Assembly: GCA_029006795.1 (NCBI GenBank)
Contig: JAQXGQ010000144.1
Coordinates: 1 to 52,193, forward strand
Origin: Clostridiales bacterium
Lineage (GTDB): Bacteria; Bacillota; Clostridia; Lachnospirales; Lachnospiraceae
DNA: 52,193 bases
Reading direction: 5' to 3'
Part shown: one piece after another, positions 11,587 through 31,799 of the stretch
Numbering within the stretch: the stretch's first letter is position 1
Layout: each line of letters begins with the position of its first letter
Made by a program: the position numbers and the translations under genes
Notes under the pieces: generated by a model
The model's input: the letters and a program-made list of their open reading frames with translations, nothing else
What the model was told of the DNA's origin: nothing
Database searches by the model: none

Positions 11587-11679
11587 ATTAAGTCCCCTTT
11601 TGTCAAACTTCACAAAAACCACTTTTAAAATATACAAAAATTATACCATATGCCATATCATGTTTGCAATATTATACAA

Positions 11680-11731
11680 AATTCCCCCAGAACAAATTGT
11701 TTTTCATATTCCAATCTGTCCTGGGGGAATT
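11680..11731 (-). terminator. Terminator after the GH1-ManA gene
   Basis: An imperfect long hairpin with 11-bp outer arms AATTCCCCCAG (11680-11690) and CTGGGGGAATT (11721-11731), plus inner pairing, then TTTTGTATAA on the minus strand. It closes the main mannan operon and separates it from the two-component genes. Confidence 0.7.
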
Positions 11732-11736
11732 CATTT

Positions 11737-14040
11737 TTATATCGTAGAAGCGATAATCTCCAATTTTCCCTGAAGTTCTACTTTTCCGTAGCCGTTTGGC
11801 AGAATAAAGTGATCTCCTTTTTTAATGTGCTGTCCGTTTAAAAGTGCATCGCCCTCCAAAACAGACATAATCAGGAACGGATATTCCTGTTCAAACTCCG
11901 TCTTTCCGTCCAGCTCAAGCTTAAACACCTTATAATAGCTGCAGTCATAAAGCTGATACAGCGTATTCTTCGGTACGTTTGCGGCAGATATTACACTGTC
12001 CTCTACCGACTTTGCCGGAACATTGATTACATCAATACTCTTTTCAATATGTAGTTCTCTCGGCTTTCCATTAGAAAGTCTGTCGTAATCATAAACGCGA
12101 TAGGTGATATCACTGTTCTGCTGTGTCTCTAAAATCATAAGACCGCCTTTAATTGCATGAACCGTACCCGGATCAATCTGAATAAAATCACCCTTCTTCA
12201 CCGGAATCTCACGGATAAATTCACTCCACTTTCCTTCGTGAATCATGTCACCAAGTTCCTCTTTCGTCTTCGCATTGTGTCCGATGACAAGAGATGCGTC
12301 TTCCGGACAATCAATGATATACCAGCACTCCGTCTTACCGAAAGAACCGTTTTCGTTCACCTTCGCATATTCATCGTTTGGATGTACCTGAATACTCAAA
12401 TCATCCTTTGCGTCAATGATTTTAATGAGCAGTGGAAAACGATCGATATCCACATTTCCGAACAGTCCCGGTTCCTCTTTCCACAATTCTGACAGCTTTT
12501 TCCCTGCATATTTTCCTTCACGAATCGTATCGTCGCCATTCTGATGCGCTGCAACGCCCCAGCATTCGCCGATATCATCACCTTCTATTTCATAACCGAA
12601 ATCGGTCCGCAATCTTGTACCACCCCAGATATTATGTGTAAATACTGGGTTCAAAAATAAAATTGGTGTATCCTGTTTGTTCATTCCAAGCTCCCTTCCA
12701 CCAGATTCAATCACCTTCTGATACCAATAGGCAGAATCCTTTACAATCCTTTTTTGTGTCGTAAAATCCACATAAACTATCCCAAATCTCTCATTATAGC
12801 CTTTGTCCCATTCAAAATTGTCCAAAAAAGTCCAGAGGAAATATCCACGCACATCCACGCCTTCATCATTTGCTTTCTGGAGTGCAGAAAGATATTCATC
12901 CAGAAACTGAATACGATTCGGATCATGAACTCTCCCGTCGGCTGAAACATTATCATGACAGGACATTCCGTTCTCCGTAATATAGATCGGTAATCCGTAA
13001 CGCTCATACAGAAATTTCACACCCCAGTAAAAGCCTTCCGGTGTCACCGGCCAATTTGCCGCTGTCTTCGGAAATCCCGGTGCACGCTTTATGAACTCCG
13101 GCTCACCATCCGCGCCTGCCCGCACCTGGTAGCCGTTATAAATATTCTGCCCCATGAAATCAATCGGCTGATGAATCAGTTCCATATCCGCTTGTGTAAT
13201 TTCCGGCAGATACTCCTGATATTTCTTTAGTCCTTCCTCGGGATATTTTCCCAAGAACACCGGATCTGAAAACCATGCCACATTCCAGGTCCAGTTGTCA
13301 ATCGGATTATAAAAACCAAAATAAACCTTCTTTGCAGCCTCTATATCCTCTGGCTTATCTGATGCCGGATAAGCAACACCACAGGTCGGTGCATAGCCTA
13401 TTTTTATCGGCTGCACTGCATACTTGCGCAGGTTAATCACTGCCTTGCCATGCGCGCGGAGCACATTGTGTGCAATCTGGAATGTCTCTTTTATTTCCAT
13501 TTTTTTACCTGGCGCATGCACCCCGGAAAGATGTCCCAACCCCACAAAGCACTGTGGCTCATTTAAGGTAAAATAATACTCACAGAGATCGGAAAAGTTC
13601 TCCGCCACAACCTTTGCATATTCGCCAAACCAGTCAATGACCTTTTCATTCAGCCAGCCTCCCTGGTCCTGCAACGCCTGCGGCAATTCCCAGTGATACA
13701 ATGTGATATACGGAGTGATTCCGTTTTTCTTCATCTCCAGAATCATATCACGATACAATTCAATTGCTTTCCCATTTACTTTTCCGGTTCCTTCCGGCAA
13801 AATCCTTGCCCAATTTAAGGAAAACCGATATGCCTTGATGCCTAGCAAACGCATCAGCGCAAAATCTTCTTTATAGCGATGGATGGAATCACAGCTCACA
13901 TAGGCATTCTGATTTTCAAAAATCCGTCCCTCCTCTGTAAAGGTATCCCAGACGCATTTTCCGCATCCATCCTCCTTATCTCTTCCTTCTATCTGATAGG
14001 CGCTGCTTGCCACGCCCCACGCAAAATCCTCTCGAAACAT
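11737..14040 (-). CDS. GH1 beta-glucosidase fused to class I mannose-6-phosphate isomerase
   Basis: One 767-residue frame with two complete enzymes. Residues 1-452 are GH1: acid/base Glu in FTLNEPQ, nucleophile Glu in YITENGMS, and TFLDNFEWDKGYNERFG at the aglycone region. The E-W there, not the Ser/Lys set of phospho-glycosidases, points to unphosphorylated substrates. Residues 453-767 are a full 315-residue ManA with zinc ligands in LSIQVHPND, TECWYII and GTVHAIKGG, converting mannose-6-P to fructose-6-P. Both are cytoplasmic. The internal ManA Met (12684) is preceded by GGAAGGGAG 6 bases upstream, like a separate gene's ribosome site. Removing one G from the GGG at 12693-12695 would end GH1 in TGA overlapping the ManA ATG. 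It is the last gene of the mannan operon and supplies its final step. A sequencing indel cannot be excluded. Confidence 0.9.
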   Translation of the reverse strand: MFREDFAWGVASSAYQIEGRDKEDGCGKCVWDTFTEEGRIFENQNAYVSCDSIHRYKEDFALMRLLGIKAYRFSLNWARILPEGTGKVNGKAIELYRDMILEMKKNGITPYITLYHWELPQALQDQGGWLNEKVIDWFGEYAKVVAENFSDLCEYYFTLNEPQCFVGLGHLSGVHAPGKKMEIKETFQIAHNVLRAHGKAVINLRKYAVQPIKIGYAPTCGVAYPASDKPEDIEAAKKVYFGFYNPIDNWTWNVAWFSDPVFLGKYPEEGLKKYQEYLPEITQADMELIHQPIDFMGQNIYNGYQVRAGADGEPEFIKRAPGFPKTAANWPVTPEGFYWGVKFLYERYGLPIYITENGMSCHDNVSADGRVHDPNRIQFLDEYLSALQKANDEGVDVRGYFLWTFLDNFEWDKGYNERFGIVYVDFTTQKRIVKDSAYWYQKVIESGGRELGMNKQDTPILFLNPVFTHNIWGGTRLRTDFGYEIEGDDIGECWGVAAHQNGDDTIREGKYAGKKLSELWKEEPGLFGNVDIDRFPLLIKIIDAKDDLSIQVHPNDEYAKVNENGSFGKTECWYIIDCPEDASLVIGHNAKTKEELGDMIHEGKWSEFIREIPVKKGDFIQIDPGTVHAIKGGLMILETQQNSDITYRVYDYDRLSNGKPRELHIEKSIDVINVPAKSVEDSVISAANVPKNTLYQLYDCSYYKVFKLELDGKTEFEQEYPFLIMSVLEGDALLNGQHIKKGDHFILPNGYGKVELQGKLEIIASTI

Positions 14041-14071
14041 ACTGCTCCTCCAAATTTGAGTTTCGCAGCTT

Positions 14072-16285
14072 TCACACCTTATACTGGCTCAATGCCTCCT
14101 GCAGACGGGAAACTTCCTGATTCAGTTCCTCCGCTGCCGCCGCCAGTTTCTGTGCATCAGAAAGCTGACCATTTACGGTTGCTGTTACCTCCTCCGCCGA
14201 AGCTGCTGTTTCCTCTGAGACAGCCGCAATACTGCGAATAGAGTCAAATACTTTTTCTTTATCTGTTACCATTTCTTCCATGTTTCCGGTTACTTTAATA
14301 AGCACCTGAATCAAATTCGTTACATTTGTATTAATCTCACTGAAAATATCTACTGTACCTTCAATAGATTCCGCCTGTGTCTTTAAAAACTCCTCCGCCC
14401 GCTTTGCCGAATCGGACGTCACCTGCGTCTTCTGCTGAATCACACTTACTATCTGGCGGATATGACTACCCGCCTCTGCGGACTGATCCGCAAGTTTTCG
14501 TATTTCCTCTGCTACAACGGCAAAGCCTTTGCCTGCTTCACCTGCTCTGGCAGCCTCAATCGATGCATTTAAGGAGAGCAGATTTGTCTGTTCTGCAATC
14601 TCACTGATTGTGGCAATAATACTGCCAATGCTCTTGGAATTTTCCTCTACATCTGCAATATTCCGTATCAGGACGTCCGTAATCTCTGCTGCCGCTTTGG
14701 ATTTGTCACTGAGTTCATACACCATGACTTTTCCGTTTTCAATCGCTGTCATCGCCTGCTTGGAATTTTCCTGCATTGCTCCGGTTCCTTCATATACCTG
14801 ATTCAGCTTATCCGAAAATTTCGTCATTTCCTGCAAACCGACATCTGTATCTTCCGCCTGCTTTGCAACACCCTGTGCCACTTCTTCCATCGCCGTATTG
14901 ATTCCAATCATGGAATCTGCCATGGTGCTCGCTGTGGAAGCAACGCCGTCGGTGGACTCGTTTACCGCCGTAATAAATTCCACAACATTCTGCATCAGAT
15001 TCCTGATGTTATGCAGCATGTCTGTCATGCCGCCTGCCAATAATTTAAATTCATCATTACGTTTTGTAACAAACTCTGTAGTAAAGTCCCCTGCCGAGAC
15101 TTTTTTCATCTGTTTGTTTAATGTTTTTACCTCACTGCTGATGCCCTGTGCCATTACACTTCCGATAAACAATGCAACCAGACACGCAACAATAACGATA
15201 ATAATCGTAGCATTGCGAATCTGTGATGCTGCAGAAAGAATCGTTGACTTTGGTACAATACTTGCAACTACCATCCCTGTCTTTCCAATCGGAGAAACAC
15301 AAAGCAGATGGCTCTCGCCCTGGAAGGACACATAGCTGTTTCCTGCCTCTGTCGCAGCTAATGCCACTTCCTCGACCTTGCTTCCATCAAAAATATCTGT
15401 TGTGACAAGCGCACCATCCTCCATGGTCAGTGCCCGGTTATCCGGTGTGAATAATGCCACATAAGAGCCCTCACCATTGTCAATATTGGTAAGGACCTCC
15501 TCTATTGCCTCTGTTGTAATATCCAGACTGATAAATCCATTTCCCTTTGCAAAGGTACGCATATATGCTACAGCATATCTGTCCTCACTTGAACCGACAT
15601 TTTCATCCAGATACTTGTGATAGCCGCTCCAGTAACTCTCATTTCCGCTGGTAGATTTGAAACGCGCTCCCTCATCTGTTGCCAGATATTCTTCATACGC
15701 CTCTCTGGACGTATTACTGGTAGAAGAAGTAATTCCATTTCCGTTTTCTCCAAAAACCGCATAATTTGAGATATAACTGGAAGTTCCCCTGACTGTAGTC
15801 AATACCGACTGGGCAGAACGATAGCACGACTGTGCCTCCGCCGCATCTGCCTTATAAGATTTTGTATAATATGCCTGTATGTACTCATTGCTGGCAAACT
15901 CTGCCGCCTTATTCTGCACATTCTCACATAAAAGATTACAGTTTAAGCTCATGGCAGACACAGTATCCATTACAGACTGCTCATACTGCCTTTTGATACT
16001 GCTTACCGAAAGATTATAGGATACCGTTCCCAGTATCACGATCAGAATAACCGGAACACAAAACGCAAGAATCAGTTTGTATCCAATCTTGCTGTTTCCC
16101 TTCTTATTTTTGGAAACCTTGGTCTTCTTATTCTCATCTTTACTTTTTTCGCCCGGTTTTGCTGTTTTTATTGCATCGAAAGACAATTTCGGCACCTTAA
16201 TCTTTTTTACTGCTTCATTTATCTTTTTCTTTTCAGTGCTTTTTGTCTTTGCCGTCTTATCTTTCTTCACAATACGTTTCTTCAT
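14072..16285 (-). CDS. Methyl-accepting chemotaxis protein inside the mannan operon
   Basis: A 737-residue chemoreceptor. Residues 1-66 are a very lysine-rich cytoplasmic tail (starts [20 protein letters not shown]). TM1 is about 69-92, a large extracellular dCache-like sensor about 95-345 ([33 protein letters not shown]), TM2 about 352-375, then HAMP and a signalling domain with tip [20 protein letters not shown]. Start chosen at MKKRIV because GGGAGG lies 8-9 bases upstream; in-frame Mets at up to 16348 are possible. It is 69 bases after the esterase and 31 before GH1-ManA with no terminator between, so it should be co-transcribed with mannan catabolism. Sensing of mannan-derived sugars or of their binding protein is inference. 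Confidence 0.93.
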
Positions 16286-16354
16286 GGCCTTTTCCTCCCT
16301 GTGTGGTCTGCTCACGGACTCATGCATCATCTTCTCCCCTCTGCTCATTCCCCC

Positions 16355-17476
16355 TTATTTTGATGAACAGATAATTGATGCCAGGTAAAACGGTACTGCT
16401 GCATTCCTGCTTTCTTCTGTCAGCCGGATCTTTAATGTGTGCTTTTTTACTTCCCCGTGGCGTAAAATGTTCTCCAGAAAAAGACAGTCACCCCAGGTCT
16501 CCTCGAAATTCGCATCCAGTCTTACTGCAGTTTCTTCCTGTCCGTCAATCACCGCTTCTGCAATGGGAGCAGGCTGCTTTACTGACTTTTTATACTGGAT
16601 TGCAATCTCACTTCCATAGATTTCAAATGTAATGGATGCTCCCGGTTCGGATGCTATCCACCCATACTTGAATACATCTGTGATAGATTCCTGTTTTGTC
16701 ATGTCCTTTTTCCAGTCTCCGACCATCAAAGGAGCACTGTTGTCATTCCGATACCGTCTGGCATGCTCATAGGCATTTGCCGTAAGAGGCTCTTTTTTTT
16801 CAAAAGGCATCTCCTCCGCTTTCCCCATCTCCTGATATACTTTTTCCAGAAAATAGATAATCACATCCGCTACCAGTTCATGACCAACATCATTCGGGTG
16901 AAGATAATCTGCTGTAATTTCCTCTGCTTCTATCCTTCCCGCCGCCACCTCCGGATAAATGGAACGCTGCATACTGATCTGTGGCAGTTCATAATACCTT
17001 GCTACTTTTGCGTGCTGTACTTCGGCATTTCCTCCGTCGTCATAACGCACATTATTTAGAACTATTATAGCAGGTTTTTTATGAAAAGTGTAGATTTTTC
17101 GAACTAAACTTTCATAAGTTTCCAGGAAAAACTCACTACTTTTATCATTTACACTAAATTCCACAAAAACAAGATCTGGTTCTTGGCCAAGCAAATCATC
17201 CTCAACTCTTGCCGCTGCAAAATGGGAGGTCGTTGCACCAATGCCTGCATTAATATAGGTAATTTCTGATTTAGGAAATTTTTCCTTCCACCATGCATAG
17301 ACACGATATGCATAACATAGCTTTGGGCTGGACGCCAGACATCCCATGGTAATGGACCCACCGATAAACCCGACGTTTATTTTCTCTCCAGCCTCTGCGC
17401 GCTTCATCACTTCTTTCAGGCGATAAAGATTGCCTCGATTGGCTATCGCCCGCTCACAATCTATTTGATATTTCAT
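16355..17476 (-). CDS. SGNH-hydrolase carbohydrate acetylesterase, CE17-like
   Basis: A 373-residue cytoplasmic protein with no signal peptide. The N-terminal SGNH domain carries all blocks: nucleophile Ser in VGFIGGSITMG, Gly in INAGIGATTS, Asn in FVEFSVNDKSSE, and Asp/His in ADYLHPNDVGHE. The C-terminal ~120 residues (from about ESITDVFKYGWIASEPGASI) form a beta-rich domain like the carbohydrate-binding module of the CE17 mannan acetylesterase family. Family knowledge: CE17 and CE2 esterases in Roseburia remove 2-O-, 3-O- and 6-O-acetyls from manno-oligosaccharides so phosphorylases can act. Domain order (SGNH first) favours CE17 over CE2. Start at 17476 after GGAGAT; an earlier ATG at 17494 lacks a site. 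Confidence 0.82.
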   Translation of the reverse strand: MKYQIDCERAIANRGNLYRLKEVMKRAEAGEKINVGFIGGSITMGCLASSPKLCYAYRVYAWWKEKFPKSEITYINAGIGATTSHFAAARVEDDLLGQEPDLVFVEFSVNDKSSEFFLETYESLVRKIYTFHKKPAIIVLNNVRYDDGGNAEVQHAKVARYYELPQISMQRSIYPEVAAGRIEAEEITADYLHPNDVGHELVADVIIYFLEKVYQEMGKAEEMPFEKKEPLTANAYEHARRYRNDNSAPLMVGDWKKDMTKQESITDVFKYGWIASEPGASITFEIYGSEIAIQYKKSVKQPAPIAEAVIDGQEETAVRLDANFEETWGDCLFLENILRHGEVKKHTLKIRLTEESRNAAVPFYLASIICSSK

Positions 17477-17501
17477 CTTACGATATCTCCGCAACGCCTT
17501 A

Positions 17502-20988: not shown

Positions 20989-21004
20989 CGTTTTTCTCCT
21001 ATCC

Positions 21005-21865
21005 TTAGCCCTTAACAGCTCCTGCGGTAATACCACTGTAAATCTGTTTCTGGCATATAATGAACACGATCAGTGCTGGAAGCAGTGAAATGATAACACC
21101 TGCACAAATCAGATTGTAACGGTTTCCAAGTGGTCCAGTGAATGTATATAAGGACAATGCAATGGTACGAATATTCTGATCCTGCAAATACAGACTGGCT
21201 GAATAGTACTCATTGTATGTATTTACGCCCTTTAAAATAGCGCTGGTAACAATTGCCGGCTGAAGCAGCGGCAGGATAATCTTCCAATAAATCTGGAAAT
21301 AAGAAGCACCGTCAATGATGGCAGATTCATCCAATGAAACCGGAATATTTTCCATAAACTGGATGAAAATATAAACGGAAATAATATCCGTACCCATCAT
21401 CATGATAATGTATCCATACAAGTGATTGATAAATCCAAGGTTTCCCATAATCTTATATACTGTTACCTGCATTGCTACTGCCGGAAGCAGAGATGCAAAC
21501 AAAAACAGGTTACGAATCAGGCCATTACCCGGGACTTTAAAACGGTTAAGTACATAGGCAAGCTGCGTACCAACAAGGATTGCACCAATGAGTACAAAGA
21601 CCATAACAATTAATGAGTTTAAAAACGCCCGACCCATATGTGCAGTCTCAAATGCTCTTACAAAGTTGTCAAAAGTCCATGATGACGGAAGTGTCATTAC
21701 GTTTGTTGACTGATATTCCGCATCGCTTTTAAAAGCTGTGATGACACAGGATACTACCGGAAGCACTGCGCAAAATGAGAAGAATATCAGGGAAAAATAT
21801 TTTACAACTACCCAAATCCAGCCGCCAACGCTTCTGTGTTTGATTTTTATTTTTTTCTTTTCCAT
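21005..21865 (-). CDS. Sugar ABC transporter permease, MalG-like (CUT1)
   Basis: A 286-residue membrane protein with six predicted helices. The inner-membrane EAA loop reads SLDESAIIDGASYFQIYWKI followed by ILPLLQPAI, matching the EAAxxDGA...IxLP contact motif for the ATPase. It ends YSGITAGAVKG, typical of MalG-type subunits. It pairs with the MalF-like permease 15 bases upstream and the binding lipoprotein. No ATP-binding subunit is encoded in the window, so a shared MsmX-type ATPase elsewhere is expected, as is common for CUT1 systems in Firmicutes. Confidence 0.93.
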   Translation of the reverse strand: MEKKKIKIKHRSVGGWIWVVVKYFSLIFFSFCAVLPVVSCVITAFKSDAEYQSTNVMTLPSSWTFDNFVRAFETAHMGRAFLNSLIVMVFVLIGAILVGTQLAYVLNRFKVPGNGLIRNLFLFASLLPAVAMQVTVYKIMGNLGFINHLYGYIIMMMGTDIISVYIFIQFMENIPVSLDESAIIDGASYFQIYWKIILPLLQPAIVTSAILKGVNTYNEYYSASLYLQDQNIRTIALSLYTFTGPLGNRYNLICAGVIISLLPALIVFIICQKQIYSGITAGAVKG

Positions 21866-21880
21866 CCTGGTTAGCCTCCT

Positions 21881-22861
21881 TTACGCTTTTACTCTCTTTT
21901 TATGTTTGATTTCATCCGTTTCGTTCGCATTGCGGAACAAATACTTCATAATCAACTTCTGGGCAATTGTTGCCGCAAAAATAATAAGAAGCAAAACCAC
22001 TGCCATTGCAGATGCAAGACCAACCTTCTGGCTGACATGTGCAATCTCGTTCATAATTACGAAATAGGTTCCGGTTCCGTTGGCACCACTGGTGATAACG
22101 TATGGTGGTTCGAAAGCACTTAAAGAACCTGTGATAGAAAGAATGACATTTAAGGTTACGATAGTTCTTATACTCGGCAGAATGATATGTATAAACTGCT
22201 GAAATCCATTTGCTCCGTCCAGTTCTGCCGCTTCATACATTTCCTTGTCTACAGACATAATCGCTCCGATAAAGAGTACCATGTTCTGTCCAAAGTATCG
22301 CCACACTGAGGTAGCTACCAGAGACCAGTTATTGATAGACTGGTCTTTCAGCCAGTACGGAAGATTGTCAAGTTCAAATCCAAGCCATTGAAGAATTGTG
22401 TCAAACACAAACCCTCTGGTATAGAAAAATTTAAAAATAAAACCAATTGCAATACCACTGATTAAGTATGGGAAAAACATAAGTCCCTTGAAAAAGTTTC
22501 CACCCTTTACCTTAAAACTCAAAATGGTTGCCAAATATAATGCCAAAACCAACTGCAAAATTGCTCCAACAACATAATAAAGGCTCAATTTCAAGGCTCC
22601 GAAACAGTCATCCCTAGTAAAGACATCAATATAGTTTTTCCAGCCGACAAACTGCCATTTTTCCCTCGGAGTTCCGTATTTCATCTTATAAAAACTAAAT
22701 CTTACCATTTCCTCAAAAGGCAAATAGGTAAATACAAACAGCAACAGTAGTGGAATTATCATGAACCCCACGCAAATCAGTACCTGCTGTCCCTTTCTGC
22801 TTTTCGCCCATTTAATTAGATTAAAGGGTTTCTTTTGAAAAGATTTCTTTTCTGCTTCCAT
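21881..22861 (-). CDS. Sugar ABC transporter permease, MalF-like (CUT1)
   Basis: A 326-residue membrane protein with six predicted helices and EAA loop MYEAAELDGANGFQQFIHII followed by LPSIRTIVT. The N-terminus is basic (EKKSFQKKPFNLIKWAKSRK) before TM1. Start chosen at 22861 (MEAEKKSF), since GGAGG lies 8 bases upstream; an earlier ATG at 22888 has a weaker, more distant site. It forms the channel with the MalG-like subunit for manno-oligosaccharide import (substrate inferred from context). Confidence 0.92.
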   Translation of the reverse strand: MEAEKKSFQKKPFNLIKWAKSRKGQQVLICVGFMIIPLLLLFVFTYLPFEEMVRFSFYKMKYGTPREKWQFVGWKNYIDVFTRDDCFGALKLSLYYVVGAILQLVLALYLATILSFKVKGGNFFKGLMFFPYLISGIAIGFIFKFFYTRGFVFDTILQWLGFELDNLPYWLKDQSINNWSLVATSVWRYFGQNMVLFIGAIMSVDKEMYEAAELDGANGFQQFIHIILPSIRTIVTLNVILSITGSLSAFEPPYVITSGANGTGTYFVIMNEIAHVSQKVGLASAMAVVLLLIIFAATIAQKLIMKYLFRNANETDEIKHKKRVKA

Positions 22862-22951
22862 GTCCACTTCCTCCACATCTCCAAACATGTTCTGCCATTT
22901 TTCCTTTCAGAGGAGCAGGGACGTTTCCCTGCCTCCTCTGTATTATCTTCA

Positions 22952-24421
22952 TTATTCTTCTGTTACTTCGACTCCAAGTGTTTCCTGTGCATCCGTCCAT
23001 GCCTCATTCCAGTCAGCCATAATCTCATCAAAGGTCTTATCGCCATTTGAAGCGTGTTCAATAATCTGCTGCACTTTCACATCTCCACCTGCGTTAAAGT
23101 TCAATTCTGATTCAGAATTCATCTCATTGAAAAGATCTTCTTCTCCCGCTACTGCCGGCTCATCCTGAACAAAGGTTACACCGTCAAAGGAAAGTTTTGT
23201 TTCTGTGCTGTTAGCGTCTACAGGAAGTCCATCCTCATTGTAGGAGAAACCGGATTCCTCGGTGAGCCATTTTACAAATACCATAGCTGCTGCCTGCTCT
23301 TCCGGTGTTGCATTTACATTAATTGCGTATGAGTAATCTGCACCGTCAGTAGCATACTGAACGCCATCAATGGTAATTGGGAATGGCATATATCCGATAT
23401 CATCTGCATTTTCACCTGCTGCTTTCATCTGTGGAATTGCCCAGGAACCAAGTACCATGCAACCAATCTCACCATTGTTAATCATGCCTTTGCAACCTTC
23501 CCAGTCTGTGGTTGCATAGTCATCTTCAATCAGACCATCTGCTACTGCATCATATAAAATTTTATAAACCGCATAAGCGTGTGTTTCATCGCCATAATCT
23601 TTGAACGGATCTTTCGTATGAACCAGTTTCTGGTTCATGTATGTATTGTCACCGGTTGCATTATTTCCGATGTAAGCATCCCATGCACCCATTGTCCATC
23701 CTGCTGCATAGTTTGTATAAAGCGGAATTGCATCTGTGTTATCTTTGATTGCCTGTAAAGCTGTAATAAACTCATCCGGTGTCTTAGGAATTTCGGTAAC
23801 ACCTGCTTCTTCAAATACCTTCTTGTTGTATACGATACCCTGTGTCGTTGCTGTAGAAGGTACACCATAAACCTCTCCGCCATACTCCCATGCTGTTGCA
23901 TAATTGATTTCTGTCTTCATGGTATCTAAATCACCGTAAGAAATGAAATAACTGCTTAAGTCTGCCTTGTCTACTGCAGGAATACCCATGATTGTCTCAT
24001 AATCACCAGACTGTAAATGCATCAAAGCATCGTCTGCATATCCGGTAGAGGTTGTAATATTTACAGTAATGTTTGGATATAATTTGTTAAAATCTTCAAT
24101 GTACTGTTTCCAATTCTTTCCGCCGTATTCATCGCTGTCCATATCTGTTCTGTGATTGAACATGCTGATTTCAACAGAAAGGTCTGTGTAATCTTCTCCC
24201 AATGTAATGTCTGCATAGGATAAAGTACCATCTGCTGTCCCGGCAGCCTCTCCTGCATCACCGGTTTCCGTACCAGCTGTGTTTCCTGTACCAGCTGTGT
24301 TTCCTGTACCAGCTGCATTCCCTGCGTTGCTGCCGCCATCTGCATTTGTGTTACCGCATGCTGCCATGCTCATGGTCATTGCTGCGATTAACGTAACTGC
24401 CATTACTTTTTTGAATTTCAT
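22952..24421 (-). CDS. Sugar-binding lipoprotein of the manno-oligosaccharide ABC transporter
   Basis: A 489-residue protein. The signal peptide ends in lipobox SMAAC (Cys about 22), giving membrane anchoring. Residues 23-65 are a Gly/Ala/Thr/Asn-rich flexible linker with repeated AGTGNT units. From about residue 80 it is a cluster-type family 1 extracellular solute-binding protein (ITVNITTSTGYADDALMHL, YNKKVFEEAGVTEIPKTPDE, MVLGSWAIPQMKAAGENADD). A GGGAGGAA ribosome site lies 8 bases upstream. It is the first gene of the long mannan operon. Oligosaccharide specificity is inferred from neighbouring GH130, GH113 and GH36 genes. Confidence 0.93.
   Translation of the reverse strand: MKFKKVMAVTLIAAMTMSMAACGNTNADGGSNAGNAAGTGNTAGTGNTAGTETGDAGEAAGTADGTLSYADITLGEDYTDLSVEISMFNHRTDMDSDEYGGKNWKQYIEDFNKLYPNITVNITTSTGYADDALMHLQSGDYETIMGIPAVDKADLSSYFISYGDLDTMKTEINYATAWEYGGEVYGVPSTATTQGIVYNKKVFEEAGVTEIPKTPDEFITALQAIKDNTDAIPLYTNYAAGWTMGAWDAYIGNNATGDNTYMNQKLVHTKDPFKDYGDETHAYAVYKILYDAVADGLIEDDYATTDWEGCKGMINNGEIGCMVLGSWAIPQMKAAGENADDIGYMPFPITIDGVQYATDGADYSYAINVNATPEEQAAAMVFVKWLTEESGFSYNEDGLPVDANSTETKLSFDGVTFVQDEPAVAGEEDLFNEMNSESELNFNAGGDVKVQQIIEHASNGDKTFDEIMADWNEAWTDAQETLGVEVTEE
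24263..24316. repeat. Three 18-bp tandem repeats in the lipoprotein linker
   Basis: Units start at 24263, 24281 and 24299. The last two are identical except for the final base (GTTTCCTGTACCAGCTG then T or C). They are in frame and encode the AGTGNT linker repeats, so slippage would change tether length in steps of six residues. Confidence 0.75.
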
Positions 24422-24637
24422 GATAAAATTCCTCCCTTTTTTTAATCTAAAATCAATTCGTTATTTGATTTAATTTAATTATATATTTTTCTATTTTTTA
24501 GTCATCATTCTATCTTGTAAAATATATATTATTATTGCTTTTATTGTGTTTTTCCATATTATATACAAATCTCGCTACTTATTTTTGTGCATCTTTAATG
24601 TTATACTCGTCTTTTTTCTTCTTTTTTAGTTTGTTTT

Positions 24638-24665
24638 TTTACTTTATTTTTAACTAATAAGTAAA
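24638..24665. promoter_or_regulatory. Inverted repeat, possible operator of the mannan operon
   Basis: Arms TTTACTTTATT (24638-24648) and AATAAGTAAA (24656-24665) pair with one bulged base around a 7-base centre. It is about 75 bases upstream of the candidate -10 of the lipoprotein operon and 28 bases upstream of the AraC -35. AT-richness makes chance symmetry possible. Confidence 0.4.
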
Positions 24666-24693
24666 TTTAATTTCTATTTTTATATTAAAAAAC

Positions 24694-24722
24694 TTGTCAT
24701 TTAAAATCTTCTAAGCTATAAT
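24694..24722 (+). promoter_or_regulatory. Promoter of the first AraC regulator
   Basis: TTGTCA (24694-24699), 17 bases, TATAAT (24717-24722), about 42 bases before the ATG, with AAAAAGGAGA as the ribosome site. Confidence 0.75.
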
Positions 24723-24764
24723 AATACAAAATTCAATGATACTTTACAAAAAGGAGATACCCCT

Positions 24765-25649
24765 ATGGATTTCTTAGCTTCTTTTCTGGCTTCATTCAGT
24801 AAAACACCCTCGCTTCCAAACGGAATGCCTCCGGAAACATTATTAGGTCACATATACGAAGAGAAAGCTGACATTCCATGCCAGTCATTGCTTTCTATCC
24901 ACGCTTATGGCTCCCACTATATGTCTGCGCCCTTTTCCTATCATTTTCGCTCTTTAAACAGTTACCTTCTTCTATATACCAAAAATGGGAACGGCACACT
25001 GCAGACTGCAGAAAACAAATTTACTCTGGAAGAAATGTCTCTCTTTCTCCTTGACTGCAGGCAACCCTTTTCTCTGTCTCTCTCTGGCAGCTTCTGGAAT
25101 TTTGAAATCTATTTTTGTACCGGCTCACTGCTTTCTGCGTTCTATCTCCGTCCACAGGGAATGTATTGGAGTCTAAGCCATTCCGCTGAGATTCTGCGGC
25201 ATCTCCAAATGTTAGAGAACAGTAACAAAAACTTTCTGCATCGGAATCCCATTCTCGATCTTAAATGTTTTGCGAATCTTTTCTCTGACCTTTCCTTAGC
25301 AGCAGAGCAGGAAATGAATGCGAAGAAAAATCTTCCCTCTTACCTTCTCTATATGAAAAAGTGCTTCGACTACTCTTATGCGAACCATTATTTTCTGACC
25401 TATTTTGAAACAGAACTTGATATCAGTAAGTACCGTCTTTGCCGCGAGTTTTCTACTGTCTTTGGGGTTTCTCCCATACAATATCTCAATCAAAGGCGCA
25501 TTGAAGCAGCCAAAGAATTGCTATGCACTACCAGCATGACAGTTCACGAAATCGGTTCCTCTGTAGGCTTTGATAATACCAACCATTTTATCAATCTTTT
25601 TAAACGCTCCACCGGCAAAACCCCGAATGCTTACCGGCAGGAAAATTAA
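24765..25649 (+). CDS. AraC-family transcriptional regulator (mannan locus, divergent)
   Basis: A 294-residue protein. Residues about 40-140 are a cupin-like sensor domain (FRSLNSYLLLYTKNGNGTLQ, FTLEEMSLFLLDCRQPFSLS). About 195-292 are the double HTH: first helix pair degenerate, second typical (SMTVHEIGSSVGFDNTNHFI, NLFKRSTGKTPNAYRQEN). It is divergent from the lipoprotein operon, the usual position for a local activator responding to an imported sugar. It converges on the LacI gene and shares a bidirectional terminator with it. Confidence 0.88.
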   Translation: MDFLASFLASFSKTPSLPNGMPPETLLGHIYEEKADIPCQSLLSIHAYGSHYMSAPFSYHFRSLNSYLLLYTKNGNGTLQTAENKFTLEEMSLFLLDCRQPFSLSLSGSFWNFEIYFCTGSLLSAFYLRPQGMYWSLSHSAEILRHLQMLENSNKNFLHRNPILDLKCFANLFSDLSLAAEQEMNAKKNLPSYLLYMKKCFDYSYANHYFLTYFETELDISKYRLCREFSTVFGVSPIQYLNQRRIEAAKELLCTTSMTVHEIGSSVGFDNTNHFINLFKRSTGKTPNAYRQEN

Positions 25650-25675
25650 AGTAAAATAATCTTTATGGAATCAAA

Positions 25676-25697
25676 AAACTGCGCCTCAGCGCAGTTT
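25676..25697. terminator. Bidirectional terminator between araC-type and lacI-type genes
   Basis: Stem AAACTGCGC (25676-25684) and GCGCAGTTT (25689-25697), loop CTCA, with an A-run on its left so that minus-strand transcripts end in TTTTTTGATT. Both convergent genes stop within 30 bases. Confidence 0.85.
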
Positions 25698-25698
25698 C

Positions 25699-26721
25699 TT
25701 AGTTATTGACTTTTTTCACACTATTTTTATGGACCATATGTCCGTCCACAATAGTTATTCCCTGTTTGTAGCGGTTATCCTCTATCTTTTTAATCAGAAT
25801 ATGAACCGCCTTTTTAGACATTTCCTTCACATCCACATCAAACGTCGTAATATCCACATCACATAGTCCCGGATACAGATAGTTGTCAAAGCCAACCACA
25901 GACACATCCTCCGGCACACGATATCCCTGTTCCTCCAAAAGATTCACTACTCTGCTTGCAGTCAAATCACTGTTACATACAAAGGCTGTCGGTTTTTCCT
26001 TAAATTCATCGTAACTCATGTCTACATTTACAACGCCTTCCATGTTACGATCCGGTATCACCCATTCCTGTGGCACTTTTTTTCCGTGCTCCATCATAGA
26101 CCTTGCATATCCAAAATAGCGATCCGTGATGCTGGCTGTGCAGAGCAATGTTCCCACATAAGCAATATTTTTATGCCCCATCTCAAAGAGGTAATTCGTC
26201 AACATGTAGGAACCATAATAGCCGTTGGAAATGACTGCATCACTCATCTGATGTTCATCGTAGAAGTCAAGGTACACAATCGGTACGGTTGTGTTTTGAT
26301 TCAGTGCCGCAAGGTATTCTGTCTGAAGCCTTCCCACGATAATCAACCCATCCGCTTTCTGTTCTAACACCATCTTAGGGAGTGAAAGTTCTGCTTCTCC
26401 TGTTAACGAAATAACTTCCAAAAGTGTAAAACTCTCCTTTTGTACAGCTTTCATATTTATACTTTGATACATCTTCCAGTAGAAAGAATCATATCCACCT
26501 AAATATTTTTCCGCTACAATCACTCCTATATTATAGCTTTTCTGTACTTTTTCCCTCTTTATGGCGGAGGGCTGTTTATATCCCATTTCATCCGCGAGTT
26601 TTTTTATCTTCTCGCGCATTGCCTCGCTAACACCCTTCTGACCAGAAAGTGCTTTTGACACTGTTACAGTGCTGACGCCTAACTGCTCTGCGATATCTGC
26701 AAGTTTCACTGCCTTTGCCAT
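25699..26721 (-). CDS. LacI-family transcriptional repressor of the mannan locus
   Basis: A 340-residue protein. The HTH and hinge helix are at residues 5-55 (VKLADIAEQLGVSTVTVSKA). A periplasmic-binding-protein-like sensor spans 65-335 (VIVAEKYLGG, DGLIIVGRL, PTAFVCNSDLTASRVVNLLE, VPEDVSVVGFDNYLYPGL). The ribosome site is AAGGAG. It has its own consensus promoter directly behind GH36. The gene nests between GH36 and the transporter operon, so control of these units by a manno-oligosaccharide effector is likely (inference). Confidence 0.92.
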   Translation of the reverse strand: MAKAVKLADIAEQLGVSTVTVSKALSGQKGVSEAMREKIKKLADEMGYKQPSAIKREKVQKSYNIGVIVAEKYLGGYDSFYWKMYQSINMKAVQKESFTLLEVISLTGEAELSLPKMVLEQKADGLIIVGRLQTEYLAALNQNTTVPIVYLDFYDEHQMSDAVISNGYYGSYMLTNYLFEMGHKNIAYVGTLLCTASITDRYFGYARSMMEHGKKVPQEWVIPDRNMEGVVNVDMSYDEFKEKPTAFVCNSDLTASRVVNLLEEQGYRVPEDVSVVGFDNYLYPGLCDVDITTFDVDVKEMSKKAVHILIKKIEDNRYKQGITIVDGHMVHKNSVKKVNN

Positions 26722-26765
26722 TTCCCTGCTCCTTTTATTTATTACTTAAAAAATCACCTAAATTA

Positions 26766-26794
26766 ATTTTATTTTTTACTTCTTTTTTTGTCAA
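26766..26794 (-). promoter_or_regulatory. Promoter of the LacI-type regulator
   Basis: On the minus strand, perfect TTGACA (26794-26789), 17 bases, TAAAAT (26771-26766), 45 bases before the ATG and starting 9 bases after the GH36 stop codon. Confidence 0.75.
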
Positions 26795-26802
26795 GATGAG
26801 TT

Positions 26803-28992
26803 TTAGCAGGATACAATATGAAGCAATTTCGATTGAAAATCTCCCCAGAGGTTTGCAATCTGTATTCCCGCATAAAGAAGGGTATCTCCCGCATAAATTT
26901 CTTTCTCCCCTTCTATGCGGTAATTTTTCTCCGGGTCAAGTCCCTTCAAACAAATTCTTCTGCTGCGGTAATTCGGTCGGTTTAACACCTGCACAAAGGT
27001 TATCAGTGCTTCATTTTTATCCTTAGATACCACTTCGTAACAGTCAAAATAATGATTTTCCTGATAAGAGGCAATACGGTAATAATCTCCCTCACGAACC
27101 AAATCATTGTATTTATGATACATTGCCACCTGCTCCGGTATCAGTTTTTTGTCTTCTTCCGGTATCTTTGTGATATCTAACTCATATCCAAAGGTCCCTG
27201 CTAACGCCACATGACCTCTTGTCTCAAAAGGTGTCACCCTGCCCACAGTATGGTTCGGGCAGTCGGAAACATGGGCACCCATCGTAGAAAGAGGGTAAAT
27301 TAACGCCGTTCCTTCCTGAATTTTTAACCGCTCCACAGCATCTGTATCATCCGAGCACCAAATCTGCGGGCTGTAATATAGCATTCCCGGGTCAAATCTT
27401 GCACCTCCGCCGGAACAGTTTTCCAAAAGCAAATGCGGAAATTCCGTCACCAGACGTTCCTGCATTTCATAAAGTCCCAACACGTAACGGTGATAAAGTT
27501 CTCCCTGACGGTCAGCCGGCAGCTCCATGCTTCCGATATCGGAAAGCTGGCGATTCATGTCCCACTTCACGTATTCAATGTTGGCACTGCGTAGAATTTT
27601 AGCGACGCACTCGTAAGCATAATCCCTCACTTCTTTTCTGGTCAAATCCAGCACATACTGATTTCTGCAAAGAGACGGTGTGCGGTTTGGCACCCTAATT
27701 GCCCAGTCCGGATGTGCTTTATAAAGTTCGGAATCCGGGGATATCATTTCTGGTTCAAACCAGATACCAAACTTCATGCCAAGTTTATTTACCTCATCAA
27801 CCAGATATTTCAAGCCGCCTTTTATCTTATTTTCATTGACAAACCAGTCACCCAAGCTGGTGTTGTCATCATTGCGGTGTCCGAACCACCCATCATCCAT
27901 TACCAGCATTTCTATTCCAAGCTCAGCTGCTTTTTTCGCAATGGAAAGAAGTTTTTCCGTATCAAAATCAAAGTAGGTTGCTTCCCAGTTATTAATTAGA
28001 ATCGGACGCTTTTTATTCTTGTATTCACCGCGTATCAGATGATTCCGATACAACTCATGGAACTGATGTGTCATATCATCCATACCACCATTAGTATAGA
28101 CCAATACCACCTCCGGTGTCTGGAATTCTTCCCCTTTTTCTAATTTCCAACAGAAGTTTTCCGGATGGATTCCCATTGCAGCCCGAATCACATCGTGCTG
28201 GTTCAATTCCACCTGTGCGAGAAAATTACCGGAATATACAAAGTGCATTCCATAAACTTCTCCGTTTGTCTGCGTGGCATCTCCCGCCTTTAATGCCATA
28301 AACGGATGATCCTGATGAGAAGTTTCACCACGGACAGATTCTAATCCGCAAAAGCCTTTTCCCACTTTACGCCACTGCATCATACGTTCCCTTGCCCAGG
28401 AACCATGCAGCGTTAAAAGTTCAAAATCCTTATTATCCATATCCAGATTTGCAGAAAGCACCTTTGTCAAATACAACGGTTCTCCCTGATTTACCACCCG
28501 GACACTTCTTGCGATTACGTCCACATCCAAAAATACCGTATAAAGCAGAACCACCTGAAGCCCCAGCACCTTATCTTCACAGAGAAGTTCTAACGTTTCA
28601 CACTCTTTTTCCGCTCCAAAGGTTGCAGGTAATCCCGGAAGCATCGGTTTTCCCGGATAAATCCGATGGGATACATAGCTTAGCGATACCGCCACATGAC
28701 CACCGGCGGTTTTCACTGCAATGCTGCTTCTGCGGTAATCCCCCACACCGTTTCCCGGATATTCCATAGGAAAAGAATCCAAAAAAGAAGTCCTGTCCCT
28801 GTTATTTTCGGAAGGAACAAAAGGCCCTTCCTTAGTCCGAAGCAGATATCCAATCCGGTAATCTCTTAATTTTTTGCCATAATAAACGTGTCCGACAAAA
28901 TTCTCTTCATCCACAATGCCAATGACATAACTGGAATTTGGCGTATCTAATTTGAAAATCCTATCCTGCTCATAAAATGTAATTGCCCCCAT
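26803..28992 (-). CDS. GH36 alpha-galactosidase, cytoplasmic
   Basis: A 729-residue protein of the usual size for tetrameric GH36 enzymes. The N-terminal beta-supersandwich is about 1-330 and the catalytic barrel about 330-640. Nucleophile Asp is in IEYVKWDMNRQLSD and acid/base Asp in IWCSDDTDAVERLKIQ; substrate-binding stretches are MLVMDDGWFGHRNDDNTSLG and GIWFEPEMISPDSELY. There is no signal peptide. It removes alpha-1,6-galactosyl side groups from imported galactomanno-oligosaccharides before phosphorolysis. It is 41 bases behind the phosphohexomutase gene on the same strand, so the pair should share the promoter at 30804-30832. Raffinose-type substrates are also possible. Confidence 0.94.
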   Translation of the reverse strand: MGAITFYEQDRIFKLDTPNSSYVIGIVDEENFVGHVYYGKKLRDYRIGYLLRTKEGPFVPSENNRDRTSFLDSFPMEYPGNGVGDYRRSSIAVKTAGGHVAVSLSYVSHRIYPGKPMLPGLPATFGAEKECETLELLCEDKVLGLQVVLLYTVFLDVDVIARSVRVVNQGEPLYLTKVLSANLDMDNKDFELLTLHGSWARERMMQWRKVGKGFCGLESVRGETSHQDHPFMALKAGDATQTNGEVYGMHFVYSGNFLAQVELNQHDVIRAAMGIHPENFCWKLEKGEEFQTPEVVLVYTNGGMDDMTHQFHELYRNHLIRGEYKNKKRPILINNWEATYFDFDTEKLLSIAKKAAELGIEMLVMDDGWFGHRNDDNTSLGDWFVNENKIKGGLKYLVDEVNKLGMKFGIWFEPEMISPDSELYKAHPDWAIRVPNRTPSLCRNQYVLDLTRKEVRDYAYECVAKILRSANIEYVKWDMNRQLSDIGSMELPADRQGELYHRYVLGLYEMQERLVTEFPHLLLENCSGGGARFDPGMLYYSPQIWCSDDTDAVERLKIQEGTALIYPLSTMGAHVSDCPNHTVGRVTPFETRGHVALAGTFGYELDITKIPEEDKKLIPEQVAMYHKYNDLVREGDYYRIASYQENHYFDCYEVVSKDKNEALITFVQVLNRPNYRSRRICLKGLDPEKNYRIEGEKEIYAGDTLLYAGIQIANLWGDFQSKLLHIVSC

Positions 28993-29033
28993 TTATATTT
29001 CCCTTTCATCCACCTGTTTTTGCAATCATATTT

Positions 29034-30749
29034 CTACTTTAACAAATCCTCTTTCAATGCTGCAAGTTTCTGCTCTGCATCTTCTAAAGAATTACCTTTT
29101 ACACCAAAATAATATTTAATTTTCGGCTCTGTACCGGAAGGACGCACACAGCACCAGGCATTATTGGATAGTTCATAATACAAAACATTCGAGGTTGGAA
29201 GTCCTGTTTTTTCTACCGCTCCGGTTGCCATATCCTTTCTGGTATCCTCTTTGTAATCGCGGACTGCTAACACATCAAAGCCACCTAATTTCTTAGGAGG
29301 ATTGTTTCTCGAATTACTCATCATCTCCTGAATCTGTGCCGCACCATCGATGCCCTTTAAAGTCTTTGTCTCTAAGCCCTCTCTATAGTAGCCGTATTTC
29401 TCATACATATCTAACATAGCATCCCACAGAGTCTTTCCATTCTTCTTACACCAGGAAGCCACTTCACAGAGCATCATAACTGCCACACAGGCATCTTTAT
29501 CTCGTGCATAGGTTCCTGCTAGACATCCGTAGCTTTCTTCTAAACCAAATACATAGTTGTAGGTATTCTGCTCTTCAAAGAATTTTATCTGCTCACCAAT
29601 GTATTTAAAGCCTGTCAGCACTTCAATTAATTTTACTCCATATGCTTTTGCAATTGCTTTTGCCATATCGGTGGTAACAATCGTCTCCACAAGAGCCGGA
29701 TTTTTCGGCATGATACCCATCACTGTTTTTTCTCTTAAAATATATTCTGCAATGAGCATACCTGACATATTTCCGGTAAACGTCACATATTCCCCTGTCT
29801 TTGTATCCTTGCAGTACACACCAAGTCGGTCTGCATCCGGGTCTGTTGCAAGAACAATGTCCGCATCCACTTCTTTTGCAAGTTTTAATGCAAGTTCGAA
29901 AGCCTTCGGTGATTCCGGATTCGGATATGCCACTGTCGGGAAATTACCGTCCGGCAACTCCTGTTCTTTGACTACATAGACATTTTCAAATCCAAGTTCC
30001 TTTAACACACGGCGCACCGGTAAGTTTCCGGTTCCATGAAGCGGTGTGTAGACAATCTTAATGTCCTTAGCCATCTCCTTTATGATTTCCGGATGAATGG
30101 ACTGTTTCTTTAATTCTTCCATATAACGGTCATCCATCTTAGCACCAATCACCTGATAAAGTCCGGCTTTTAGAGCCTCCTCTTTCTTCATGGTTTTTAC
30201 CTGGGTAAAGGAGGTTACTTTTGCCACCTCTGCCAAAATGTTTTTATCGTGAGGCGGAGTAATCTGCGCACCATCCTCCCAATATACTTTGTATCCGTTA
30301 TATTCTCTCGGATTATGGCTGGCGGTAATTACTATACCGGAAATACATCCTAACTCTCTTACCGCAAAAGAAAGCTCCGGTGTCGGACGAAGGCTGTCAA
30401 AAACATATGCCTTGATACCGTTGGCATTTAAGCAAAGCGCTGCTTCCTCTGCAAATTCCGGTGACATAATTCTGGAATCGTGAGCAATTGCTACCCCTTT
30501 CTCCTGTCCATTCTGGGAAATAATATAATTGGCAAGCCCCTGGGTTGCCTGACGAACGGTATAAATATTCATACGGTTCGTTCCTGCGCCGATGACACCC
30601 CTAAGACCACCTGTCCCGAACTCTAACTGTCTGTAAAAACGGTCTTCGATTTCTGCCGTATCATCTTTGATTGCCTCTAACTCTGCCTTTGTATCTGCAT
30701 CAAAATATGGATCACTGCACCACTGTTTGTAAACTTCCATGTAACTCAT
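29034..30749 (-). CDS. Phosphoglucomutase/phosphomannomutase (alpha-D-phosphohexomutase)
   Basis: A 571-residue protein with the four-domain phosphohexomutase layout: phospho-Ser loop GIVITASHNPREYNGYKVYW, Mg-binding DPDADRLGVY, sugar loop VFGLEESYG, and phosphate-binding CCVRPSGTEPKIKYYFGV. It interconverts hexose-1-phosphate and hexose-6-phosphate. In this locus it should take mannose-1-phosphate from the GH130 enzymes to mannose-6-phosphate for ManA, and may also act on glucose phosphates as a general PgcA. AAAGGAGA precedes the ATG. Confidence 0.93.
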   Translation of the reverse strand: MSYMEVYKQWCSDPYFDADTKAELEAIKDDTAEIEDRFYRQLEFGTGGLRGVIGAGTNRMNIYTVRQATQGLANYIISQNGQEKGVAIAHDSRIMSPEFAEEAALCLNANGIKAYVFDSLRPTPELSFAVRELGCISGIVITASHNPREYNGYKVYWEDGAQITPPHDKNILAEVAKVTSFTQVKTMKKEEALKAGLYQVIGAKMDDRYMEELKKQSIHPEIIKEMAKDIKIVYTPLHGTGNLPVRRVLKELGFENVYVVKEQELPDGNFPTVAYPNPESPKAFELALKLAKEVDADIVLATDPDADRLGVYCKDTKTGEYVTFTGNMSGMLIAEYILREKTVMGIMPKNPALVETIVTTDMAKAIAKAYGVKLIEVLTGFKYIGEQIKFFEEQNTYNYVFGLEESYGCLAGTYARDKDACVAVMMLCEVASWCKKNGKTLWDAMLDMYEKYGYYREGLETKTLKGIDGAAQIQEMMSNSRNNPPKKLGGFDVLAVRDYKEDTRKDMATGAVEKTGLPTSNVLYYELSNNAWCCVRPSGTEPKIKYYFGVKGNSLEDAEQKLAALKEDLLK

Positions 30750-30803
30750 GTTTTACTTCTCCTTTTCCGGCAGCATTTCTGCCCTTTTAATATTATTGAA
30801 TAA

Positions 30804-30832
30804 ATTATAACCTTTTTTTAATTAGATGTAAA
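30804..30832 (-). promoter_or_regulatory. Promoter of the phosphohexomutase-GH36 unit
   Basis: On the minus strand, TTTACA (30832-30827), 17 bases, TATAAT (30809-30804), 55 bases before the ATG. Confidence 0.75.
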
Positions 30833-30843
30833 CTAATTTTACC

Positions 30844-31779
30844 TCATTCTATCTTTTTCGCAAAAAAATTCTTCACCACAAGTTCTGCCGGTTTTGCATA
30901 TATTTCATAGTCCATTTTGTTTCGTGCTGTATTCTCCGCATACAGTCTTGCTCCCCACGACCAGAATGCCATTCCCGAAACCCATTCTCTCTTTTCGCAG
31001 GCAAGAAACATCTTTTCATACCATGCCGCCTGCCCCTCAGCATCAGGTGCTCCTTTTACTCCCCAGTCATTTGGCACCCGGTTAGAACCTTCCACCGACA
31101 TACAGCCTGCCTCCGCAAAAAAGAAGGGTTTGTTAAATTTCTTCACTACTTTTTCAATCCGGTCTAATTGTGTTTCCCAGTCGTCAATCGGATAATAGCC
31201 GCTGGAGGATATAACATCTACGCAATCCCACCATCTGACATTATGCTCCTGGTACTTATCCGTATTGTAAGATACCAGTCCGTGATAAACGGCTCTGATA
31301 TCCGAAATCAGTCTGCGCCACTCCTCTTCCCGATGCTCACTCATTACCATCTCACAGCCGGCAATGAACATTTCGCAGCCTGTCTCTTCTGCAATTTTAG
31401 CATAATGAAGCTGAAATTTTGTGTAAGAAGAAAACCAGTTACTCCACTTCGGTTCGCATGGCACATCTTCATCAAAGAAATTAATATGCGCCCGCCATGT
31501 ACCGTTTTTGCAGTTTGCCGTTGGCTTTAACGCTACCCGAAGCCCTAATTCTTTTGCAAAGGCTACCATGCTTTTTAGTTCTTCATCCGTCAACGTTGCC
31601 TTTGAAGTATAACAGATTTCTTCGGACTGCGGTGTCTCCTGAAGCCCACTGGGTGCAAAAATAACAAAATTAGCGCCGGTGCGCTCTTTCATTTTTACAA
31701 GGCTCTCTTTTGCCTGTTTCTTTTCAAATTCTCCTGCCCATGCAAAAGGAGCAAAGGTCATTCCGCAAATATACTCCAT
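30844..31779 (-). CDS. GH113 beta-mannanase / exo-oligomannosidase, cytoplasmic
   Basis: A 311-residue (beta/alpha)8 protein of GH113 size. Family stretches: GMTFAPFAWAGEF, LGLRVALKPTANCKNGTWRA, acid/base Glu candidate in CEMFIAGCEMVMSE, nucleophile Glu candidate in KPFFFAEAGCMS, and the C-terminal SGMAFWSWGARLY. There is no signal peptide, so it acts on imported oligosaccharides. Characterised GH113 enzymes are endo-mannanases or release mannose or mannobiose from chain ends. Start set at 31779 (MEYICG) because AAAGGA is 8 bases upstream; an ATG at 31788 sits too close to it. Confidence 0.87.
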   Translation of the reverse strand: MEYICGMTFAPFAWAGEFEKKQAKESLVKMKERTGANFVIFAPSGLQETPQSEEICYTSKATLTDEELKSMVAFAKELGLRVALKPTANCKNGTWRAHINFFDEDVPCEPKWSNWFSSYTKFQLHYAKIAEETGCEMFIAGCEMVMSEHREEEWRRLISDIRAVYHGLVSYNTDKYQEHNVRWWDCVDVISSSGYYPIDDWETQLDRIEKVVKKFNKPFFFAEAGCMSVEGSNRVPNDWGVKGAPDAEGQAAWYEKMFLACEKREWVSGMAFWSWGARLYAENTARNKMDYEIYAKPAELVVKNFFAKKIE

Positions 31780-31799
31780 TTCAGCCATCCTTTCTTTCT

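Follow-up and report, generated by a model that had tools for sequence, protein, structure and literature searches.

A GH1-ManA fusion gene of a beta-mannan locus and a candidate, lineage-specific internal ribosome site at its domain boundary

The GH1-ManA gene and its surroundings

The window considered here is the whole stretch of DNA analysed, i.e., 52,193 nucleotides of a contig assigned to the family Lachnospiraceae. On its minus strand, at positions 11737-14040, ORF reading gives a single open frame of 767 codons (the GH1-ManA gene), where a GH1 beta-glucosidase half is followed by a ManA half, namely a class I phosphomannose isomerase. The features of the gene and of the surrounding locus are the following:

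12685..14040, minus strand: GH1 beta-glucosidase half, residues 1-452 (Pfam PF00232 and NCBIfam TIGR03356, both over cut-off)
11740..12684, minus strand: ManA half, class I phosphomannose isomerase, residues 453-767 (PF20511, PF21621 and TIGR00218 over cut-off)
11737..11739, minus strand: stop codon TAA, common to the fusion and the putative free ManA (sequence)
14045..14051, minus strand: ribosome-binding sequence of the main start, GGAGGAG (anti-SD energy -9.3 kcal/mol)
12691..12699, minus strand: candidate internal ribosome-binding sequence GGAAGGGAG (anti-SD energy -7.9 kcal/mol)
12682..12684, minus strand: internal ATG, codon 453, proposed start of a free ManA of 315 aa (comparative)
11678..11730, minus strand: inverted repeat ATTCCCCCAG...CTGGGGGAAT then T residues, possible terminator 3' of the gene (direct reading)
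16355-17494, minus strand: GDSL esterase (Pfam)
17604-18626, minus strand: GH130 (Pfam)
18648-19823, minus strand: GH130 (Pfam)
19813-21036, minus strand: 2-epimerase family protein (Pfam)
21005..31788, minus strand: two ABC permeases, solute-binding protein, LacI regulator, GH36, PGM/PMM mutase and GH113 (Pfam for five proteins; permease names from frame reading alone)
24765-25649, plus strand: AraC-like gene inside the mannan locus

The possible terminator was read directly and is absent from the list of a pattern scan, which was confined to loops of at most 8 bases. On the fusion protein, Pfam matches, all over cut-off, extend over residues 2-446 (GH1), 462-561 (PMI_typeI_cat) and 699-766 (MPI_cupin). 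The GH1 half belongs to PF00232 (478 bits, with positions 5-450 of the 453 of the profile matched) and reaches 506 bits with the NCBIfam beta-glucosidase (BGL) equivalog (cut-off 478.5), while scoring below the cut-offs of the 6-phospho GH1 families of NCBIfam; it is a predicted beta-glucosidase and would be an active one. Both catalytic glutamates, namely the acid/base Glu161 (NEP) and the nucleophile Glu356 (TENG), are present and are kept in 95/95 and 94/95 distinct fusions, respectively. The ManA half is a member of its family by the NCBIfam manA equivalog TIGR00218 (217.7 bits, cut-off 116.2) and by PF20511 (62.8 bits, cut-off 22). Its metal ligands are presumably Q551, H553, E571 and H628, among which Q, H and H are found in 94/95 distinct fusions (one gap) and E in 95/95.

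Met453 opens a ManA of 315 residues, and GGAAGGGAG sits 6 nt upstream of its ATG, with an anti-SD energy stronger than at any other scored in-frame ATG of the gene. Pfam, NCBIfam and ORF reading agree with an earlier sequence-only reading of this DNA, which had described two enzymes in one frame with a 315-residue ManA from Met453, and the sequence likewise bears out the position it gave for GGAAGGGAG and the GGG at 12693-12695. Its arithmetic was also correct, i.e., removal of one G would end GH1 as SLE-TGA with the TGA overlapping the ManA ATG; because the start reads ATGA, any upstream -1 shift gives the same overlap.

The neighbourhood of the gene is a beta-mannan locus of the type described for Roseburia in the available portions of two papers (PMC6385246, PMC9784577). 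Directly upstream of the fusion, at window 14072-16348, Pfam recognises a methyl-accepting chemotaxis receptor, of which a dCache-like region scores below cut-off; this receptor perhaps senses mannan breakdown products.

Distribution, partners and provenance of the fusion

The full-length GH1-ManA fusion was found in 17/62 genomes of the genus labelled here Roseburia because R. faecis M72 falls within it; one of them (G006) is frameshifted inside ManA, the genome of the window (G000) carries two copies and the second copy of G057 is partial. In a second genus, i.e., that of G121, the fusion is present in 49/77 genomes, 48 with a full-length copy and G754 with two pieces at contig ends. Of 299 genomes sampled from the family, 11 besides the window's own gave a full-length match, and in a class-level sample of 391 genomes no full-length fusion match was found outside the family of the window (E ≤ 1e-100). 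Both halves are read through in frame in 94/95 distinct fusions, the exception (L023) being frameshifted inside ManA. Identity at fourfold sites is 28-47% over the ten fusion pairs compared. The junction of the window is identical in a second assembly (G815:C14), including the same GGG at 12693-12695. The fusion is thus widespread, and is neither a one-base accident nor an assembly error; as a bifunctional GH1-ManA, it is already in print (RiGH1, RhGH1-M6P).

The two halves are not always kept together. Among the 17 Roseburia carriers, only G056 has a stand-alone class I ManA over cut-off, and in the genus of G121 a free ManA was found in 0/49 fusion carriers at E ≤ 1e-100; in this same genus, 22 genomes have a free ManA without an intact fusion, and two (G794, G808) have neither at this threshold. 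The fused ManA half is decayed where a separate ManA is present in G803 and G807 (L280, L281), G048 (L066) and G001 (L073), a complete ManA coming next after the fusion in L066. It is also decayed in G808 (L282), though free ManA was not found there at E ≤ 1e-100. Such genes and those with other partners are:

L280 3120-4856, L281 2418-4157, L282 3397-5184 and L073 3292-5001: GH1 with a decayed ManA tail, most of the catalytic part gone (separate free ManA in the genomes of 3/4)
L069 4211-6631: GH1-CE2
L083 4222-6480: GH1-GH5
L085 3943-6012: GDSL esterase-ManA
L082 3797-6268: ManA-GH5
L084 2193-4046: ManA-ROK
L081 1558-3387: ManA-PHP
L080 3413-5764: NTP_transferase-ManA
(GH1-CE2 to NTP_transferase-ManA from a domain scan of the loci of relatives)

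In G018 (L067), only relics of the GH1 half are left, matching HQPLDFM(G/V)QNIYNGY and the tail of GH1. A stop codon comes right before the homologue of the Met453 ATG, and from this ATG, its first start codon, runs an intact ManA of 317 aa. In the trees, where many nodes are weakly supported, some free ManA, GH1-only, GH1-CE2 and esterase-ManA genes are nested in fused clades, so that loss or exchange of a partner after fusion would be the simplest reading for close relatives. Four labels in these trees are wrong and were not counted as splitting: L186 (labelled 'free') and L050 ('GH1 only') are contig-end cuts, L023 ('GH1 only') is the frameshifted fusion and L049 ('GH1 only') is the GH1-CE2 gene. 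The GH1 and ManA trees place L007/L037 differently; a swap of the two domains in the lineage of the window is a weak candidate that is not claimed, mean identities to the two groups differing by only 1-4 points.

The window itself is composite. From position 1 to ~22,270 it is ~99.5% identical to G815:C14, whose genome is assigned to another genus; the match of 22,382 bases contains 116 mismatches and 5 gap openings. Identity drops abruptly near 22270, within an ABC permease gene belonging to the mannan locus, and the right part of the contig is closer to Roseburia. With G815 set aside, G183, of the same genus as G815, resembles the left flank slightly more than do the four Roseburia genomes that were searched. 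The genome of the window has two copies of a SpoVT-like gene, one of them on the left part. The second fusion of the same genome bin (L005 13480-15795, G000 contig C122) is 75% identical, has GTG at codon 453, and lies near the end of C122, adjoining an esterase-like frame, with a flank that is Roseburia-like; it is probably the native copy of the bin. The contig of the window is a mosaic of two genera, for which chimeric metagenome assembly is likelier than real exchange, and its GH1-ManA gene, intact in both assemblies, probably belongs to a neighbouring genus.

Covariation of start codon and ribosome-binding strength at codon 453

Over the 95 distinct fusions, codon 453 is ATG in 23, GTG in 15, another codon in 55 and a gap in 2. 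The site is not conserved throughout the fusion family (ATG/GTG in 38/95), and with 55/95 lacking either codon a universal internal start was rejected and the internal site is therefore lineage-specific. ATG is found in the genomes presumed to be R. intestinalis and R. hominis, and TGT in R. faecis M72. In fusions with Ile at 453 (e.g., L093, L115, L142), an ATG lies three codons upstream, at codon 450. Respective to sampling, L163 was left out of the codon counts as it has no single frame; the frameshifted L023 was counted in the codon tally, the anti-SD energy means, the strong-site counts and the SD-core motif counts, and is absent from the fusion trees, the column regressions, the trait simulation and the RNA-structure test; L278, cut by a contig end, is within the hold-out and was excluded from the regression on 108 sequences, the SD-core counts, the simulation and the RNA-structure test.

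The mean anti-SD energy upstream of codon 453 is -8.1 kcal/mol with ATG, -7.8 with GTG and -4.2 with neither, while in the three groups main starts stand at -7.8 to -8.7 and other in-frame ATGs at -2.5 to -2.8 kcal/mol. A strong SD (≤ -7) precedes codon 453 in 21/38 start-bearing fusions vs 3/55 others, and SD-core motifs occur in 28/41 start-bearing sequences vs 9/66 others. The difference holds among valines at 453 only, where GTG (15 fusions) gives -7.8 and the other Val codons (13 fusions) -3.1 to -3.9. The raw SD difference peaks at a spacing of 6-9 nt from codon 453, and the nucleotide solutions differ by lineage (AAGGAG, GGAGGG, GGGGAGGT).

Among the alignment columns with variable ATG/GTG, column 453 ranks first of 79 (t=-6.38); in a phylogenetic regression on 108 sequences, with GC3 and purine as covariates, it ranks first of 83 (t=-6.17), and its residual after amino-acid control also ranks first (t=-5.14, 108 sequences). 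A simulation of 1000 traits along the tree gave no t lower than -4.10, against -6.41 for the real trait in the same run. Fourfold sites being so divergent (see above), recent shared ancestry is an unlikely cause of the association between start and SD. Local RNA structure is weaker with ATG/GTG (-2.45 vs -4.93), column 453 ranking first of 81 columns in that direction; in the tails of the controls, one column goes the opposite way for SD (t=+3.9) and two do so beyond 4 for RNA structure. The association test was devised after a first look at the data. The hold-out comprised 49 new frames, 34 of which were dropped for sharing at least 98% identity with a frame used before; among the 15 sequences that remained, the 3 start-bearing ones are at -12.1 and the 12 others at -4.5, all 3 start-bearing ones being nearest to L105, which was already used. 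Start codon, ribosome-binding strength and spacing thus covary, as established computationally, beyond chance and kinship for the start-bearing lineages as a group; this covariation across fusions is new here, and a full-text literature search found no internal initiation in a GH1-ManA gene among the matches listed.

Codon 450 is the second-ranking column (t=-4.02), with -3.06 under covariates and a residual of -1.93 after amino-acid control; perhaps, on this weak signal, it serves as a shifted internal start in part of the lineages that lack one at 453. As to single genes, the SD of the window is as strong as its amino acids predict (p 0.56), while that of its relative L037 (AAGGAG) gives p 0.01, and the local RNA around codon 453 of the window is not unusually open (z 0.48).

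Explanations weighed and known systems

In the reading we prefer, with a probability of roughly 0.6, the gene encodes a bifunctional GH1-ManA of a beta-mannan locus, and free ManA would also be made in some lineages through initiation at codon 453. Lineage-specific internal initiation is, as a prediction from sequence, well supported by the comparison. In the start-bearing lineages, the window's lineage probably among them, ribosomes would also initiate at codon 453 (ATG/GTG) behind an internal Shine-Dalgarno sequence, such that a single mRNA would give the fusion of ~87 kDa and a free ManA of ~36 kDa. Mannose-1-phosphate derived from GH130 would be converted by the mutase to mannose-6-phosphate and by ManA to fructose-6-phosphate, and additional ManA would increase the flux through the isomerase in comparison with GH1; both the production of free ManA and this purpose are what we infer from the sequences. 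The internal ribosome site advanced by the sequence-only reading has gained from the covariation and from the ManA start of G018, but as a property of certain lineages and not of the whole family. Its pathway link gains from the beta-mannan locus and from the M6P/F6P isomerase activity reported for a homologous construct, while release of glucose from glucomannan by GH1 stays putative.

A first alternative, unlikely though by no means negligible, is that translation yields the full-length bifunctional protein and nothing shorter, Met453 and its SD-like sequence being left over from the start that manA had as a stand-alone gene before fusion. The many fusions without ATG/GTG at 453 suit this explanation, as do the Asn next to codon 453, retained in 27/29 aligned fusions as it would be beside a fossil start, and the SD of the window being no stronger than its amino acids predict. 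At the divergence of the fourfold sites, however, a neutral relic should be largely erased, whereas the codon-level SD excess accompanies the presence of ATG/GTG, is built from different nucleotides in different lineages and was matched by 0/1000 simulated traits. A ribosome pause at the domain boundary, aiding GH1 folding without initiation, would fit an SD-like sequence placed between two domains; pausing needs no start codon, yet SD strength tracks ATG/GTG at 453 and the SD difference is largest at the spacing of initiation, and we regard this explanation as improbable.

An origin of free ManA, should it exist, in proteolysis or in transcription from an internal promoter instead of internal initiation is quite improbable, too: for about 1.2 kb on the upstream side of codon 453 no minus-strand promoter-like match was found, and the promoter-like matches of the region are near chance (12 vs 9.2, sd 3.0, in shuffles), while proteolysis, compatible with all results here, leaves the covariation of SD and start unexplained. 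Finally, the sequence-only reading had proposed a recent one-base fusion of a translationally coupled pair, or else an assembly error, on the ground that removing one G gives GH1 a legal stop codon that overlaps the ATG of ManA. This is extremely improbable in view of the in-frame read-through and wide distribution of the fusion, of the divergence of its fourfold sites, of the same GGG and junction in G815:C14, and of the fusion being reported in R. intestinalis and R. hominis (PMC6385246, PMC9784577, available portions); the junction in relatives is an in-frame fusion and not two separate overlapping genes, a GH1/ManA pair with an overlapping ATGA being found in none of the twenty stretches inspected.

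Gene fusions are usually taken to give one polypeptide and hence a fixed 1:1 ratio; if the internal start of the preferred reading works, the GH1-ManA family is an example of a fused gene escaping this ratio. More broadly, we would put at even odds a two-product device in which lineages gain and lose a ribosome site between the two domains and so adjust the balance of free vs fused isomerase, the junction being also a point of partner exchange or loss (GH1-CE2, esterase-ManA, and genes with either a decayed ManA or a decayed GH1).

Regarding known systems, the 768-aa protein L009 of genome G005 is presumably the R. intestinalis gene. It is 77% identical to the window protein over 1-767, and RiGH1 and the window gene have the same GH1-ManA architecture and beta-mannan locus; in the G005 protein, residue 247 is a methionine within the GH1 domain (...YNP/MDNW...), and Glu161 and Glu356 are present. 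RiGH1 (ROSINTL182_05469/70) of R. intestinalis L1-82 was described as bifunctional, its D2 construct being reported as a phosphomannose isomerase (M6P/F6P) and its D1 construct (aa 1-246) as inactive (La Rosa et al., 2019, PMC6385246, available portions). The domain border was set there at 246/247, whereas here GH1 extends to about 450 and ManA starts at 453. As such, D1 ends mid-barrel, without the nucleophile Glu356 and about half of the domain, and its inactivity is therefore uninformative on GH1, which reopens the question of what GH1 does when butyrate producers use beta-mannan, the published inactive half being a half-barrel construct; the activity of D2, in turn, indicates that an intact GH1 is not needed for ManA to function.

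In R. hominis A2-183, RhGH1-M6P was predicted to be a bifunctional GH1 and mannose 6-phosphate isomerase in RhMosUL (PMC9784577, available portions), and the window gene shares with RiGH1 and RhGH1-M6P the same two domains, in the same order, in a beta-mannan locus. The available portions of these papers mention no internal start in RiGH1 (PMC6385246), discuss none in RhGH1-M6P (PMC9784577) and report no activity of an intact GH1 half (both). The 'GH1 isomerase' FpGH1 of Faecalibacterium prausnitzii, from a different genus, provides in an equivalent mannan locus an isomerase step like that of the window ManA (PMC8262883, in the part available). For the proposed mode of expression, the closest comparison is lysA/lysA241 of mycobacteriophage Ms6, where a long and a short product of one frame were shown experimentally to arise by internal initiation (PMC3111421, in the part available). 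While lysA is a lysin gene with demonstrated products and GH1-ManA joins two metabolic enzymes with predicted ones, lysA/lysA241 is an in-frame embedded gene with its own ribosome site, and works in the way proposed here for GH1-ManA.
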